Shown here piece by piece: positions 50,150 through 57,598 of a stretch of DNA of 64,000 bases (its first letter is position 1; each line of letters begins with the position of its first letter). The stretch comes from Siphonodentalium dalli (lineage: Eukaryota; Mollusca; Scaphopoda; Gadilida; Siphonodentaliidae): positions 129,661,282 through 129,725,281 of the forward strand of contig CP136062.1 of NCBI GenBank assembly GCA_032622095.1. Reading direction: 5' to 3'. A program made the translations under genes and the position numbers. The notes beneath the pieces are model-generated. The model saw nothing but the letters and a program-made list of their open reading frames with translations, was not told where the DNA came from and searched no databases.

Positions 50150-51488
50150 AAGAATAATAAATTATCAACACTCAGAATACTCACACTGGTCTATACATGT
50201 AACGACCCTTCAGCAAAAGAACTAATGTACATACTTATGAGCACTCGGACTAGAACATGTTCAGAAATAACGAACTTATCCGAACCTTTGGAGATAAGCA
50301 TGAAGCTCGAGTATATTTCTCTCATCTTTTAACATTCTCATAATTAAAATTTAATACGGAAACATTGTTTGTTGTGATACAACGAATCAGCCCATTATGT
50401 GAGTAGAGGTGCAACATAAACACACCCAGATAATTATTCTTGACCTGTAATTATTCGATGTTTCTTGAATAGATCGCATTAAAGCCAAGCACTCCCACAA
50501 TGTGGGTCCACACCTTGCTACAGTGTCTCCAGCTGACTCAAGTGCCAACAACCCACGCCAACCACATAGACATGCATCCCCATGGCTATGCACCTAACGA
50601 CTAATATGATTGCATTTTGGTCCTGGTCGAATTCAAAGGTTGGGAGTGGTGGTCATACAAAGAAAGGATGTAGAGACCTGCAACATCCAGTCCGACCATC
50701 ATTCACGGCCTTCGACCTGAAACGACTCAACTAACTGTGGGGTCAGTCATACGACAACTCTAGATGACCCCTACAAGCTCTGAGCGTGTTTGGCGACTCA
50801 TATCCATATATGAATATAGTTGTTTTAAGAAATTTGCATCAGGCTGAATTATATGTAATAAGTATTGTTTAAATTAAGGGTACGTTCACACGCTGGCAAT
50901 GTTACAGGAAATTTGTCATAGAAGGTTGAACTGTCTATATGTTATTTGCGACAAACTGTCTATAAATGGAAATGCCTGGCCGATTGGTATACGGGCAGTT
51001 CCTTAAGTAGTGAATATGTTACTATAAAATTTCTTAGGTTATTTTATAACTGACATTTGACCGAAATTAGCATACAAAAATATCGTAACAATCAATCAAT
51101 AACTCGTGGCATGTCAGCGTTCGAATTGGCGCCACAAGAATCAAAGAAAAAAATTCTAAAGTTAATACACAAAAGTGTGCATTATCTGTGAAAAATTTCA
51201 TAAAAACGTGCCAAGAAATGTTACAATATATGTGAACCTACGTAGCCTAAGAATTACATGCTTGTGTTGTCAACTCTGAAGGGTGATCGTCAAATAGGAT
51301 AGTCGAGAGTATACGTGGGTTTGTCGATAAAAATCGACGCGTGCGTGTATATTGTTCGAAACAGACCCCGGATACCACGAGCAAGATACGATAGTTTCAC
51401 ACACCCCTGCGTGTGTGTTCTGTAATGAATAAGACGTATTCGGATGTAATATAAATTTAATCTGACACTCCGCGGTTGATTGATGCTT
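50150..51488. other. downstream flank of the tyrosinase-like gene; no other gene seen
   Basis: AT-rich. No confident polyadenylation signal was located for the minus-strand gene. A possible Harbinger-type end (TTA followed by AGGGTACGTTCACACG at about 50877) has no visible partner end. Confidence 0.4.
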
Positions 51489-52182
51489 TCAGAATCTTCC
51501 CCTCTCCATCAAAAATGGCAATAAGCTAATTGCGAAACAGCGGTTCAACTCGCACATGAAATACGGAGACCTGCATGTGTTGTTTCTACAAGATCCAACG
51601 GGTGAATATGTGTATACATGCCGCGTATAGATATTCTTTAGGCCGTCGATGTTCCTGAATTTACCTATCCCCATAGGTGATTTGGGTGCGTGCACAGTGC
51701 CTTGCGCAGATTCCGGATAATCTTTTTCCGGGTCGATTCCACGACGCCTTTGGTAATGACGAAATAGCACCCACACTTTGTCGAAAAAAGCTTGGACGAA
51801 AAAGAATACAGGGTCAATGGCTGCAGTCTCCAAGTCATTCATGTCGCCTCCGATCCACGAACGCACACGATACTGCAAGTCCTCAATGCCAGTAAGGCCC
51901 TCAGAAGTGGGTCGAGAAATGTCGGACAATCGGCTCTTCCAGAATACTTGGATAACTTCAGCTCGTGTCGGGAGCGTCCCCTGCTTGCCAATGTTTCTTG
52001 TGATTATATTGCCCGATTCTTTAATCCATCCAGCGAAAGGCCCACTTAGTACTGGTCCGAATCCCGGGCCGAAGAAATCGTCAGTGAAAAGCACATTTGA
52101 TGTCTGCGCTCGTTCATCGAGAGTGAAGTCCCAGTAAGGCATTGTAACTGAATGGTCTATCTCTCTTAGAGCAGTCTCCACC
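51489..52182 (-). CDS. tyrosinase-like protein, last exon (CuB domain with all copper ligands replaced)
   Basis: The exon starts after ...ATTTACAG (intron end at 52183) and runs to TGA at 51489-51491, giving 230 full codons. It opens with ALREIDHSVTMPYWDFTLDE, the strongly conserved segment after the first copper site in mollusc-type tyrosinases. It continues through LEVIQVFW-like sequence to the second copper region and then 'RRRGIDPEKDYPES', 'FRNIDGLKNIYT' and a C-terminal cysteine segment (C..NNTCRSPYFMCELNRC), all typical in order and spacing. The CuB pattern H-x3-H-x22-H should fall at residues 103, 107 and 129/130 of this exon. Here they are Gln103, Arg107 and Val129-Gln130 (codons at about 51873, 51861 and 51792-51797). 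The frame is otherwise undamaged. A normal family member oxidises phenols in melanin, shell or periostracum formation; this one should lack a working dinuclear copper site. The last ~16 residues after the cysteine segment are not conserved. Confidence 0.85.
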
Positions 52183-53865: not shown

Positions 53866-53987
53866 ATCAATACGAACACTCGGTGCCAGCCGAGGTACGA
53901 CGGCCCATCATGTCCAGCTCCACCGAGGTTTCTATTGTGTATCTTGACCAGCAAGTCGTATTTACTCGGTAAGATCTGGCCATCCAT
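53866..53987 (-). CDS. tyrosinase-like protein, CuA exon
   Basis: 122 bp on the minus strand, between acceptor ...TATATATCCGCAG (53988-) and donor GTGAGT (53865). It encodes 40 codons plus two bases. The product contains the complete first copper site: His in KIH, His in GGAGHDGP and His in LGWHR, spaced H-x8-H-x8-H as in mollusc-type tyrosinases and hemocyanin functional units. The exon joins in phase to the exon at 52182. Upstream exons (signal peptide and N-terminal region) must lie further right on this strand and were not identified in 54000-60200, which is filled with repeats. The gene in this window is therefore incomplete at its 5' end, or broken there by the duplication at 54.5 kb. 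Confidence 0.85.
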
Positions 53988-54488: not shown

Positions 54489-56034
54489 TACGTGCGCTCG
54501 CGCAACAGTATGGCGATCAGACAGATTCGTAGCTTGGTAGCTTGGTAGCTTGGTGTCACACTCCATGACGTCACCAAAAACGACGTAAAACCTCGTGGCG
54601 TTCTGACATTTTTACTGTGCCGCGTTTTTGCTATGTTTATTTTATGTGTTGTTTTCGATTATTTGTTTGTCGCCGATATCGCCATTTGTCAGGATTCCCT
54701 GTTTCTATATTTAAAACTGGCATGCTCGTAGTTGGCCTCGATTTCGATTTTTTCTCCCAGGTCAAAATTCGTCAGAGTTATGACAAAAATAGATCGACCT
54801 ACATTTTCTCCATCGATCTACATCAAAGAGTCTATAGACTCCTTCGGGACCTACATAGACTCCTTCATTTGGGTATTTTCACTTATAATTGGGAAGTTTT
54901 ATCATTTTTGGTTCGTGCGAAGACCTCTTTTTATCGTGCGAGAAAAGAGAGACATTCAAAACGCGATTTCGTAATTCGACGCAATAGGCTGAATAGCCTA
55001 ACCTTCAGCAGAGTTCCGGGTCAAATACGACGAATGACGTAACACAAAACAAAACGCATTTGTTAACACAAACACCGTTTGAAGAGTTTATTATTACATA
55101 AAATGATCGTTATTGATTAATTATTGATTAATTATTGATATTTATTGTTGCATATTGGCTGCTATCAATATTTACAAAAATAGTACTAATTATTTCTTAT
55201 AATTGCAGGGGGGCGGGGGTGAAAAAAAAATTTCGGCACGTATGCCGGGGTGGGTGGGTGGTCAAAGCCACCAACAAGCAATTTTTTCCGGAACTAAAAA
55301 AAAAATTCCTGCTTGTTTTTTAGTGTTTTGGCAATGAGTTGGGCTTCAAAACCACTTTGAATGAGAGAAATAATGTAATTCTAACTGGTAAACTGCAGGC
55401 AGTTATCGTGTTGTATTTTGTTGCAAATTTTGAAATCCAAGATGGCCGCTGGCGGCCATGTTTTTTTGGCCGAATGACTTCAAAATGACTCATTCCTATT
55501 TACATGTCCATGTTAACATCCATGATAAATAGTATGCACAGAAGTTCATATACAGCTGTTTACAGTGAATTTTCCCCCGCAAATCTCTGTTTTAGTGTTA
55601 AAAGGGGGGGGTGGGTGTCAAAAAATGGTCGGAAAAAACTGCCGAAAACGGAAAAAAATTTGGCGGTGGGGGTGGGTGGGTACAAAAAATGATCGAAAGG
55701 GAAAAAATGCCATACGACCCCCCCCCCCCTGATAATTGCTCCTTTGGTCAACTTTGACTATCGGAAAATGAAAATGAAAATATGCCGCTGAAAAAAATGT
55801 AATCGATATTAAAGTCTCATCCTTTCGGCAACATGGAATTGGTTTTAATTACTTAAATGATTAATATAGTAAATTGCCTTTTATCTGTGATGAAATGAGA
55901 AATGGTAATTGTCTTTTTTTTGCTAACATTAAATTAAATTAAATAAATTAAGTAAAATACAGTGAAACTATTTTTTTAATTATTGTTTATTACATTTTTG
56001 CGCACGTTGGCATCTCTCTGAGTGCATTCTAGTT
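54489..56034 (+). repeat. tandem duplication unit 1 (with hAT-like insertion)
   Basis: Begins 'ttacgtgcgctcgcgcaaca' and ends 'gagtgcattctagttgt'. Without its insertion it is about 1.02 kb. It is repeated immediately at 56049-60208. Conserved blocks include 'ccatgacgtcaccaaaaacg' and 'aaaacctcgtggcgttctga'. The reading frames at 54617-55042 and 54732-54974 have counterparts in unit 2 (56181, 56344), but stops and frame differ and no domain is recognised, so they are not called genes. Host sequence to the left shows no second target duplication. Confidence 0.85.
55207..55733. mobile_element. hAT-like MITE with CAGGGGGG ends, inserted in unit 1
   Basis: The host sequence 'ttataattgctcctttgg' is intact in unit 2 (56765-56782). 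Here it is opened: 'ataattg' then CAGGGGGGCGGGGGT ... ACCCCCCCCCCCCTG then 'ataattgctcc'. This is a 7-8 bp duplication (ATAATTG(C)) with CAG...CTG ends, as in hAT elements. The interior holds one 'ccaagatggccgctggcgg' monomer at 55438. The frames 55135, 55504 and 55560 are shadows. Confidence 0.85.
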
Positions 56035-57598
56035 GTGTTTTTTTTTGTAATTACGTGCGCTCGCGCAACAGTATGGCGATCAGACAGATTCGTTCGTAGC
56101 TTGGTGTCACTCTGTTCCGTTTCACTCCATGACGTCACCAAAAACGACGTAAAACCTCGTGGCGTTCTGACATTTTTACTGTGCCGCGTTTTTGCAATGT
56201 TTATTTTATATGTTGTTTTCGATTATTTGTTTGTCGCCGATATCGCCATTTGTCGGGAGTCCATGTTTCTATATTTAAAACTGGTATGCTCGTAGTGAGC
56301 CTCGATTTCGATTTATTCTCCCAGGTCAAAATACGTCAGAGTTATGACAAAAATAGATCGACGTACATTTTCTCCATTAGAACTCTACATCAAAGAGTCT
56401 AAAGACTCCTTCTGGACCTACATAGACTCCTTCATTTGGGTATTTTTACTTATAATTGGGAAGTTTTATCATTTTTGGTTCGTGCGAAGACCTCTTTTTA
56501 TCGTGCGGGAAAAGAGAGACATTCAAAACGCGATTTCGTAATTCGACGCAATAGGCTGAATAGCCCAACCTTCAGCCGAGTTCCGGGTCAAATACGACGA
56601 ATGACGTAACACAAAACAAAACGCATTTGTTGACACAAACACCGTTTGAAGAGTTTATTATTACATAAAATGATCGTTATTGATTAATTATTGATTAATT
56701 ATTCATATTTATTGTTGCATATTGGCTGCTATCAATATTTACACAAATGGTATTAATTTTTTCCTTATAATTGCTCCTTTGGTCAACTTTGACTATCGGA
56801 AAATGAAAATGAAAATATGCCGCTGAAAAAAATGTAATCGATATTAAAGGTACGGTTGGCCTTGACGGTGGGTGGGTATCCTGTGAAAATATTTCCAACC
56901 GTCAAAAACCACCACAAACAGAAAGAACATCAAAATGTAGACAGACTTTGTCCGTATACAAATAAGAAATATCGCATAAACAGTATGTTATTGTCATATG
57001 GTTGACCATTGTTATATATTTACATACACCTGATACCTCTTCCGATTTCCCCATAGCGTTACGGTAGACACGCCCCCTTATTCAATGCGTTCATAAACCT
57101 ATGAACGTAACGTGACGTCACTTCCAATGTCGTTCATAGGTTTATGAACACATTGGTCCCGGATATCACCGGGGATTGTCGGACATTACCGACTGCTTGT
57201 GTATCTAGTGCGTCCGGATTTGGCAAGAAATTTGTTCCGGTCTATAATCAGTGTTGTTGCTCGGTGTTACTGAGCGTTGATGTTAAAAAAAACGTGCTAC
57301 TCAATAGAGTTTTATCATTTTCCTTGCCGCTACAAATATTCCCCCGAACCTCACAAATATATCATTATGGTAGAACGGCGTGTTGTCGATTTCTTATCCG
57401 CAGCCGAAACTTAATTGTTAGTTTCAGATATTAATCATTCTTGAAATCAACACGTCTACATTAGTTACTAGCTAAACAAGACATTTTGTCATATGTGTAT
57501 ACTTTACTGTGAAATTGCGTTTTACCCGTTCTCCATGAACGGATTCTCAAAATGTTTGGTTTCCAAAAAACAAGGATTCGAACTGTCTGAACTGAACT

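Follow-up and report, generated by a model that had tools for sequence, protein, structure and literature searches.

The focal gene is a tyrosinase-domain gene on the minus strand, and two of its three coding exons lie inside the window (the whole 64,000-nucleotide stretch of DNA that was analysed). It keeps its CuA histidines, it has lost every CuB histidine, and it is probably a selectively kept pseudo-tyrosinase, encoding a non-enzyme that has been preserved, and not a dead gene.

The exon encoding the CuA half-site (53866-53987, minus strand) is translated as MDGQILPSKYDLLVKIHNRNLGGAGHDGPSYLGWHRVFVL plus two further bases and is flanked by the acceptor ccgcag and the donor GTGAGT. Paralogous exons occur at loci L016, L017, and L018. 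Taken alone, this exon aligns with positions 1-39 of the PF00264 profile at 20.2 bits, which is below the 22.6-bit cut-off. The last coding exon (51489-52182, minus strand; acceptor ttacag) carries the remaining tyrosinase domain, the CuB region, and the C-terminal cysteine segment as far as the TGA, and its score of 55.4 bits exceeds the curated cut-off of 22.6. A possible poly(A) signal, ATTAAA, lies just past the stop codon (51456-51461, minus strand) as a weak, six-base match; AATAAA was not found in the 1,488 bases searched for such a signal, which contain one further ATTAAA. The spliced protein matched 43 distinct PDB sequences at E values up to 0.01, with multi-domain hemocyanins scoring highest (best E 1.3e-79), followed by tyrosinases. 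We take the best-scoring hemocyanins to be molluscan and the matched tyrosinases to be bacterial. The intron 5' of the CuA exon contains a direct repeat (window positions 54559-55116 and 56123-56683) made of two blocks of 255 and 300 bases, which are 96% and 98% identical and are spaced by 1564-1567. The repeat probably stems from an element that is mobile or was duplicated.

A candidate first coding exon was located at G000:C2:129736051-129735791, approximately 10.5 kb past the right end of the window, which places it 20.5 kb upstream from the CuA exon. It combines a hydrophobic leader, an RIREEMR motif, and a phase-0 donor. The scan used a 28-residue motif built from the five other tyrosinase-domain genes and gave a single clear match on the correct strand, which reads RIREEMRMLTTLQKMRLFNAFRELKSET, scores 49.7, and has a phase-0 GT donor. 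As a control, left-out true exons scored 39-45, and the next unrelated score, among the matches listed in five 10-kb stretches, was 15.2 on the opposite strand. The open frame ahead of the motif begins MHKFRRFFIIGTLLHIAGLSPVSS, which appears leader-like by eye, and an acceptor closely precedes it, an arrangement shared with the paralogues. Homology, strand, and phase make this exon a candidate part of the focal gene, whose protein is probably secreted. Within 20 kb upstream of the CuA exon, no N-terminal exon could be recognised, and a truncated gene with a lost signal peptide had been considered; this idea was dropped because the next 40 kb yielded the clear candidate. A whole-genome search with the N-terminal exon of the sister gene returned only that exon itself, so the focal first exon is too diverged for that search tool.

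With the candidate first exon included, the frame runs unbroken through 358 codons and a stop across three coding exons. Both introns, of 20.5 kb and 1.7 kb, are GT-AG, and the exon-junction phases match those of the L002, L005, and L006 genes. Stops, frameshifts, and broken splice sites were looked for throughout the 358 codons as marks of a pseudogene, and none was found, in agreement with the intact frame reported in the original prediction.

On the CuA side, His104 (CAC, 53937-53939), His113 (CAT, 53910-53912), and His122 (CAC, 53883-53885), all on the minus strand, are kept with x8 and x8 spacing, in line with the H(n)H(8)H pattern. On the CuB side, the H(3)H(n)H pattern is absent: the three ligand places read Gln231 (CAG, 51873-51875), Arg235 (CGT, 51861-51863), and Gln258 (CAA, 51792-51794), the last preceded by Val257, again on the minus strand. 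The retained H-x8-H-x8-H in exon 53987-53866 and the replacement of all three CuB histidines had both been described before and are borne out here. The earlier exon numbering Q103, R107, and V129-Q130 corresponds to Q231, R235, and V257-Q258 of the focal protein, and the range 51792-51875 spans exactly these ligand codons. The accessible text of PMC3658974 places a Phe four residues before and an Asp four residues after the third CuB ligand, as well as a Phe four residues before the third CuA ligand. F254 and D262 are kept around Gln258, and by this rule the lost third CuB ligand is Gln258, the second residue of V257-Q258. The first histidine of the CuB pair is present only in L003 among the six genes, and its loss is ordinary here.

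Each replacement codon could arise from a histidine codon by a single base change (3/3, against 14/59 codons in general; chance 0.013). This could reflect recent loss, or polar residues could have been favoured. The CuA side is also altered, since the Phe four residues before the third CuA ligand is Tyr in the focal protein (F118Y) and P120G lies nearby, both beside the CuA ligands and at sites where the other five genes do not vary. The original prediction had described the surrounding framework as preserved. It is not untouched: 35/106 gap-free columns (residues 60-345) that are identical in L002, L005, and L006 differ in the focal gene, F118Y and P120G included. In the CuB block, changes hit 3/3 ligand columns and only 2/15 of the other conserved ones (hypergeometric p 0.012); for the whole domain the same test gives p 0.034, both on small numbers and run once the pattern was known.

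We compared the focal gene with its paralogues in the same genome. A PF00264 profile search returned six matches in six genes, with no run of hemocyanin-like units among them. A search for hemerythrin gave no match; the 14 control genomes in which that search did respond include no animal, and it may miss animal exons that are split. The last-exon query recovered these six genes again, with eight matches, and the CuA-exon query gave five, namely four of the six genes and a weak match at L019 (E 1.78), which was taken as chance. Which exons belong to which gene was decided from their proximity, order, and strand. In aligned columns, the ligands kept number 6/6 in L002, L005, and L006, 3/6 in the focal gene, 3/6 in L001 (a lower bound, as the CuA histidines of L001 may align differently), and 0/6 in L003. 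The nearest paralogue is the L002/L008 gene, which shares 40% identity over the last exon and has all six histidines; it stands head to head with the focal gene on the same chromosome, with approximately 132 kb between the start codons. Both lack the intron inside the CuB region that is present in L005 and L006. The tree suggested in the original prediction, here built from six sequences of one genome, groups the focal gene with the six-histidine genes L002, L005, and L006 at 100/100 against L001/L003; the sister grouping of the focal gene and L002 received 89/93, which is under the threshold of the tool. No close duplicate of the focal gene for a recent dN/dS estimate was found in homology searches that score the best candidates only.

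Several further features of the family were observed. L005 and L006 (G000:C2:122.94 and 123.01 Mb) are neighbours with 89% protein identity over 334 gap-free columns, and both retain the full set of six ligands and carry a long additional stretch at the C-terminus; by this identity, the pair appears to be a fairly recent duplication. L003 (G000:C1:162338312-162341830, frame 1033-2925 on the plus strand) lies approximately 58 kb from L001, which has at least three ligands. The aligned ligand columns of L003 read Y, V, N, S, R, and I, so that all six copper ligands are missing there. Its domain is preceded by a cysteine-rich stretch, which by eye we take to be von Willebrand C-like, and is followed by many GYDxxG-type repeats, so that its product looks like a matrix protein. 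Arg occupies the second CuB ligand place in both the focal gene (CGT) and L003 (AGA), and the differing codons suggest that it arose twice, although with two cases this may be chance. In addition, a short hairpin-like repeat, translated as CANAFSYICESTIGRLAYIRECIGL, recurs at L002, L017, L021, and L022.

A codon model of four genes and 278 codons gave an omega of 0.05 on the focal branch and 0.17 elsewhere, a non-significant difference (2dlnL 2.56, p 0.11); the focal value was 0.09 when the sister branch was also freed. An omega of 1 on the focal branch was rejected (2dlnL 16.2, p 6e-5), and none of 60 data sets simulated at omega=1 reached 16.2 (0/60; maximum 6.4). This is the dN/dS check proposed in the original prediction, and it points to purifying selection as an average over the whole branch. 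The branch is long and saturated, at approximately 4.75 changes per codon, so its omega averages in time before the ligand loss. The claim of selection rather than random decay thus stands for the branch as a whole and for the ligand-focused change in CuB, and does not extend to the timing relative to ligand loss. Moreover, among columns of residues 60-345 that are free of gaps and identical in L005 and L006, private changes number 35 in the focal gene and 33 in L002, and the tree branch lengths are 0.64 and 0.83, respectively. Half of the copper site was therefore lost without visible acceleration.

If the ligands were lost recently from a gene that is no longer needed, stops may simply have yet to appear, and the focal gene would be a young or dying pseudogene. 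Each of the three changes is a single-nucleotide step from a histidine codon, a recent loss leaves little time for the gene to break, and conserved columns near CuA are altered too (F118Y, P120G). We estimated how often free drift would produce the observed state, starting from the present coding sequence with an assumed transition bias of 2, under which 4.0% of point changes create stops. Over distances of 0.02 to 0.50 changes per site, and counting the one exact ligand pattern, the probability of losing the three CuB ligands while keeping the three CuA ligands and gaining no stop peaks at 1.3e-4, at approximately 0.05 changes per site. If the loss of any three ligands out of six is counted, it rises 20-fold to approximately 2.6e-3; including indels, at an assumed rate of 0.1 for each substitution, reduces the probability. 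Random decay of the focal gene is disfavoured by this calculation, which leaves aside a gene that lost its ligands while under selection and died only very recently. The splice sites and the candidate first exon are intact, and the focal gene has no surplus of private changes over its intact sister. On balance, we regard a pseudogene as unlikely.

Two other explanations concern the ligand codons themselves. In one, the focal protein would still be a metalloprotein with altered chemistry, in which CuA holds one metal and the carboxamides of Gln231 and Gln258 weakly hold a second, giving a new or weak activity. The retention of CuA (3/3) with the loss of all of CuB fits this, with a chance of 0.05 for such a split in a post hoc test on few ligands, and a title cited in the accessible text of PMC6639325 reports that carbonic anhydrase II keeps activity when His ligands are replaced by carboxamide residues. 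However, the cationic Arg235 at the middle ligand place should repel a metal, and the CuA loop is altered by F118Y and P120G, which leaves this explanation doubtful. In the other, the ligand codons would be assembly or sequencing errors. A distance of one base from histidine in every case is what such errors would look like, yet they would have to strike three separate ligand codons and leave no frameshift or stop in 358 codons. The focal protein is in any case just 40% identical to its nearest paralogue, and L003 in the same genome has 0/6 ligands. Error at these codons is thus very improbable.

We therefore return to the kept pseudo-tyrosinase as the preferred explanation. The gene would have originated by duplication within the six-histidine tyrosinase lineage, with L002 (head to head with it) as the likely sister. 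Its product retains the domain core, the C-terminal cysteine segment, and the CuA ligands, with a leader-like N-terminus in the candidate first exon, and lacks all CuB ligands; one metal ion might be held in CuA, stabilising the fold. According to the accessible text of PMC3658974, the family mechanism depends on a pair of coppers at one site, each bound by three histidines. Without CuB, the coupled two-copper site could not form, and the usual route of phenol oxidation should be closed; from its sequence, the focal protein is predicted to be inactive as an oxidase. It would instead act by binding, either within an extracellular matrix or coat or together with active paralogues as their partner, and we infer that the gene is expressed. 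Any single binding role is far less sure than the kept pseudo-enzyme itself. Provided that the animal is a mollusc, one may reasonably guess at a role in the shell or periostracum. A more specific and rather improbable version is that CuA holds one metal for stability, while Arg235 replaces the charge of the CuB ion and the two flanking Gln residues hydrogen bond to Arg235, keeping the core folded without copper chemistry. If this were true, the Arg of L003 at the same place (AGA) would point to a repeatable route from a tyrosinase to a structural extracellular protein.

Enzyme families often produce members that no longer catalyse and have taken on binding or structural tasks. This one genome seems to carry the copper domain with its ligands complete, halved, and wholly lost, the last of these (L003) with repeats after the domain. 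Such a series would be useful for testing how an enzyme fold turns into a structural or partner protein, and whether it can do so at an unaccelerated pace of evolution.

Finally, we compared the focal gene with known systems. With the type-3 copper alpha group of tyrosinases and hemocyanins it has in common the PF00264 domain, the CuA H(n)H(8)H pattern, and the Phe and Asp around the third CuB ligand. In contrast to that group, its CuB ligand places read Q, R, and Q, and the Phe four residues before the third CuA ligand is Tyr (F118Y). Among the open-licence papers listed, considered by title and the start of the abstract, none dealt with a single-domain tyrosinase that lacks every CuB ligand, and the accessible parts of PMC6003135, PMC5105077, and PMC3334994 make no mention of ligand loss in tyrosinases. 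Mussel nacrein MgNACR is a metalloenzyme relative in which the three zinc histidines are not all conserved, and it is among the most abundant carbonic anhydrase transcripts of the mantle edge (PMC6639325, accessible text); its family is unrelated to tyrosinase, and the likeness is an analogy only. In Biomphalaria glabrata, canonical copper histidines are replaced in Hcl-1 and Hcl-2, and Hcl-1 is expressed, with its protein present in the albumen gland and egg fluid (PMC5201427, accessible text). These belong to the same superfamily as the focal protein and share with it the replacement of copper histidines. The Hcl proteins are multi-domain, with one histidine replaced per unit in Hcl-1, whereas the focal protein has a single domain, has lost the whole of CuB, and is known from the genome sequence alone. 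By analogy, Hcl-1 (as protein) and MgNACR (as transcript) are precedents for products with replaced metal histidines that are still made.

The millipede protein CleHcBI2, the insect hexamerins, and the crustacean cryptocyanins lost copper histidines after duplication and are presumed to have a role other than oxygen transport (PMC6034248, accessible text). The focal protein resembles the hexamerins and cryptocyanins in having lost copper ligands, in its case 3/6. According to the same text, CleHcBI2 lost three ligands across both sites and evolves approximately 4.5 times faster than its sister. Unlike this member of the arthropod hemocyanin family, the focal gene has all of its losses in CuB and, by its private changes, no acceleration. 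Collectively, these comparisons indicate that the focal gene most likely joins a known kind, the copper-family proteins stripped of copper ligands.
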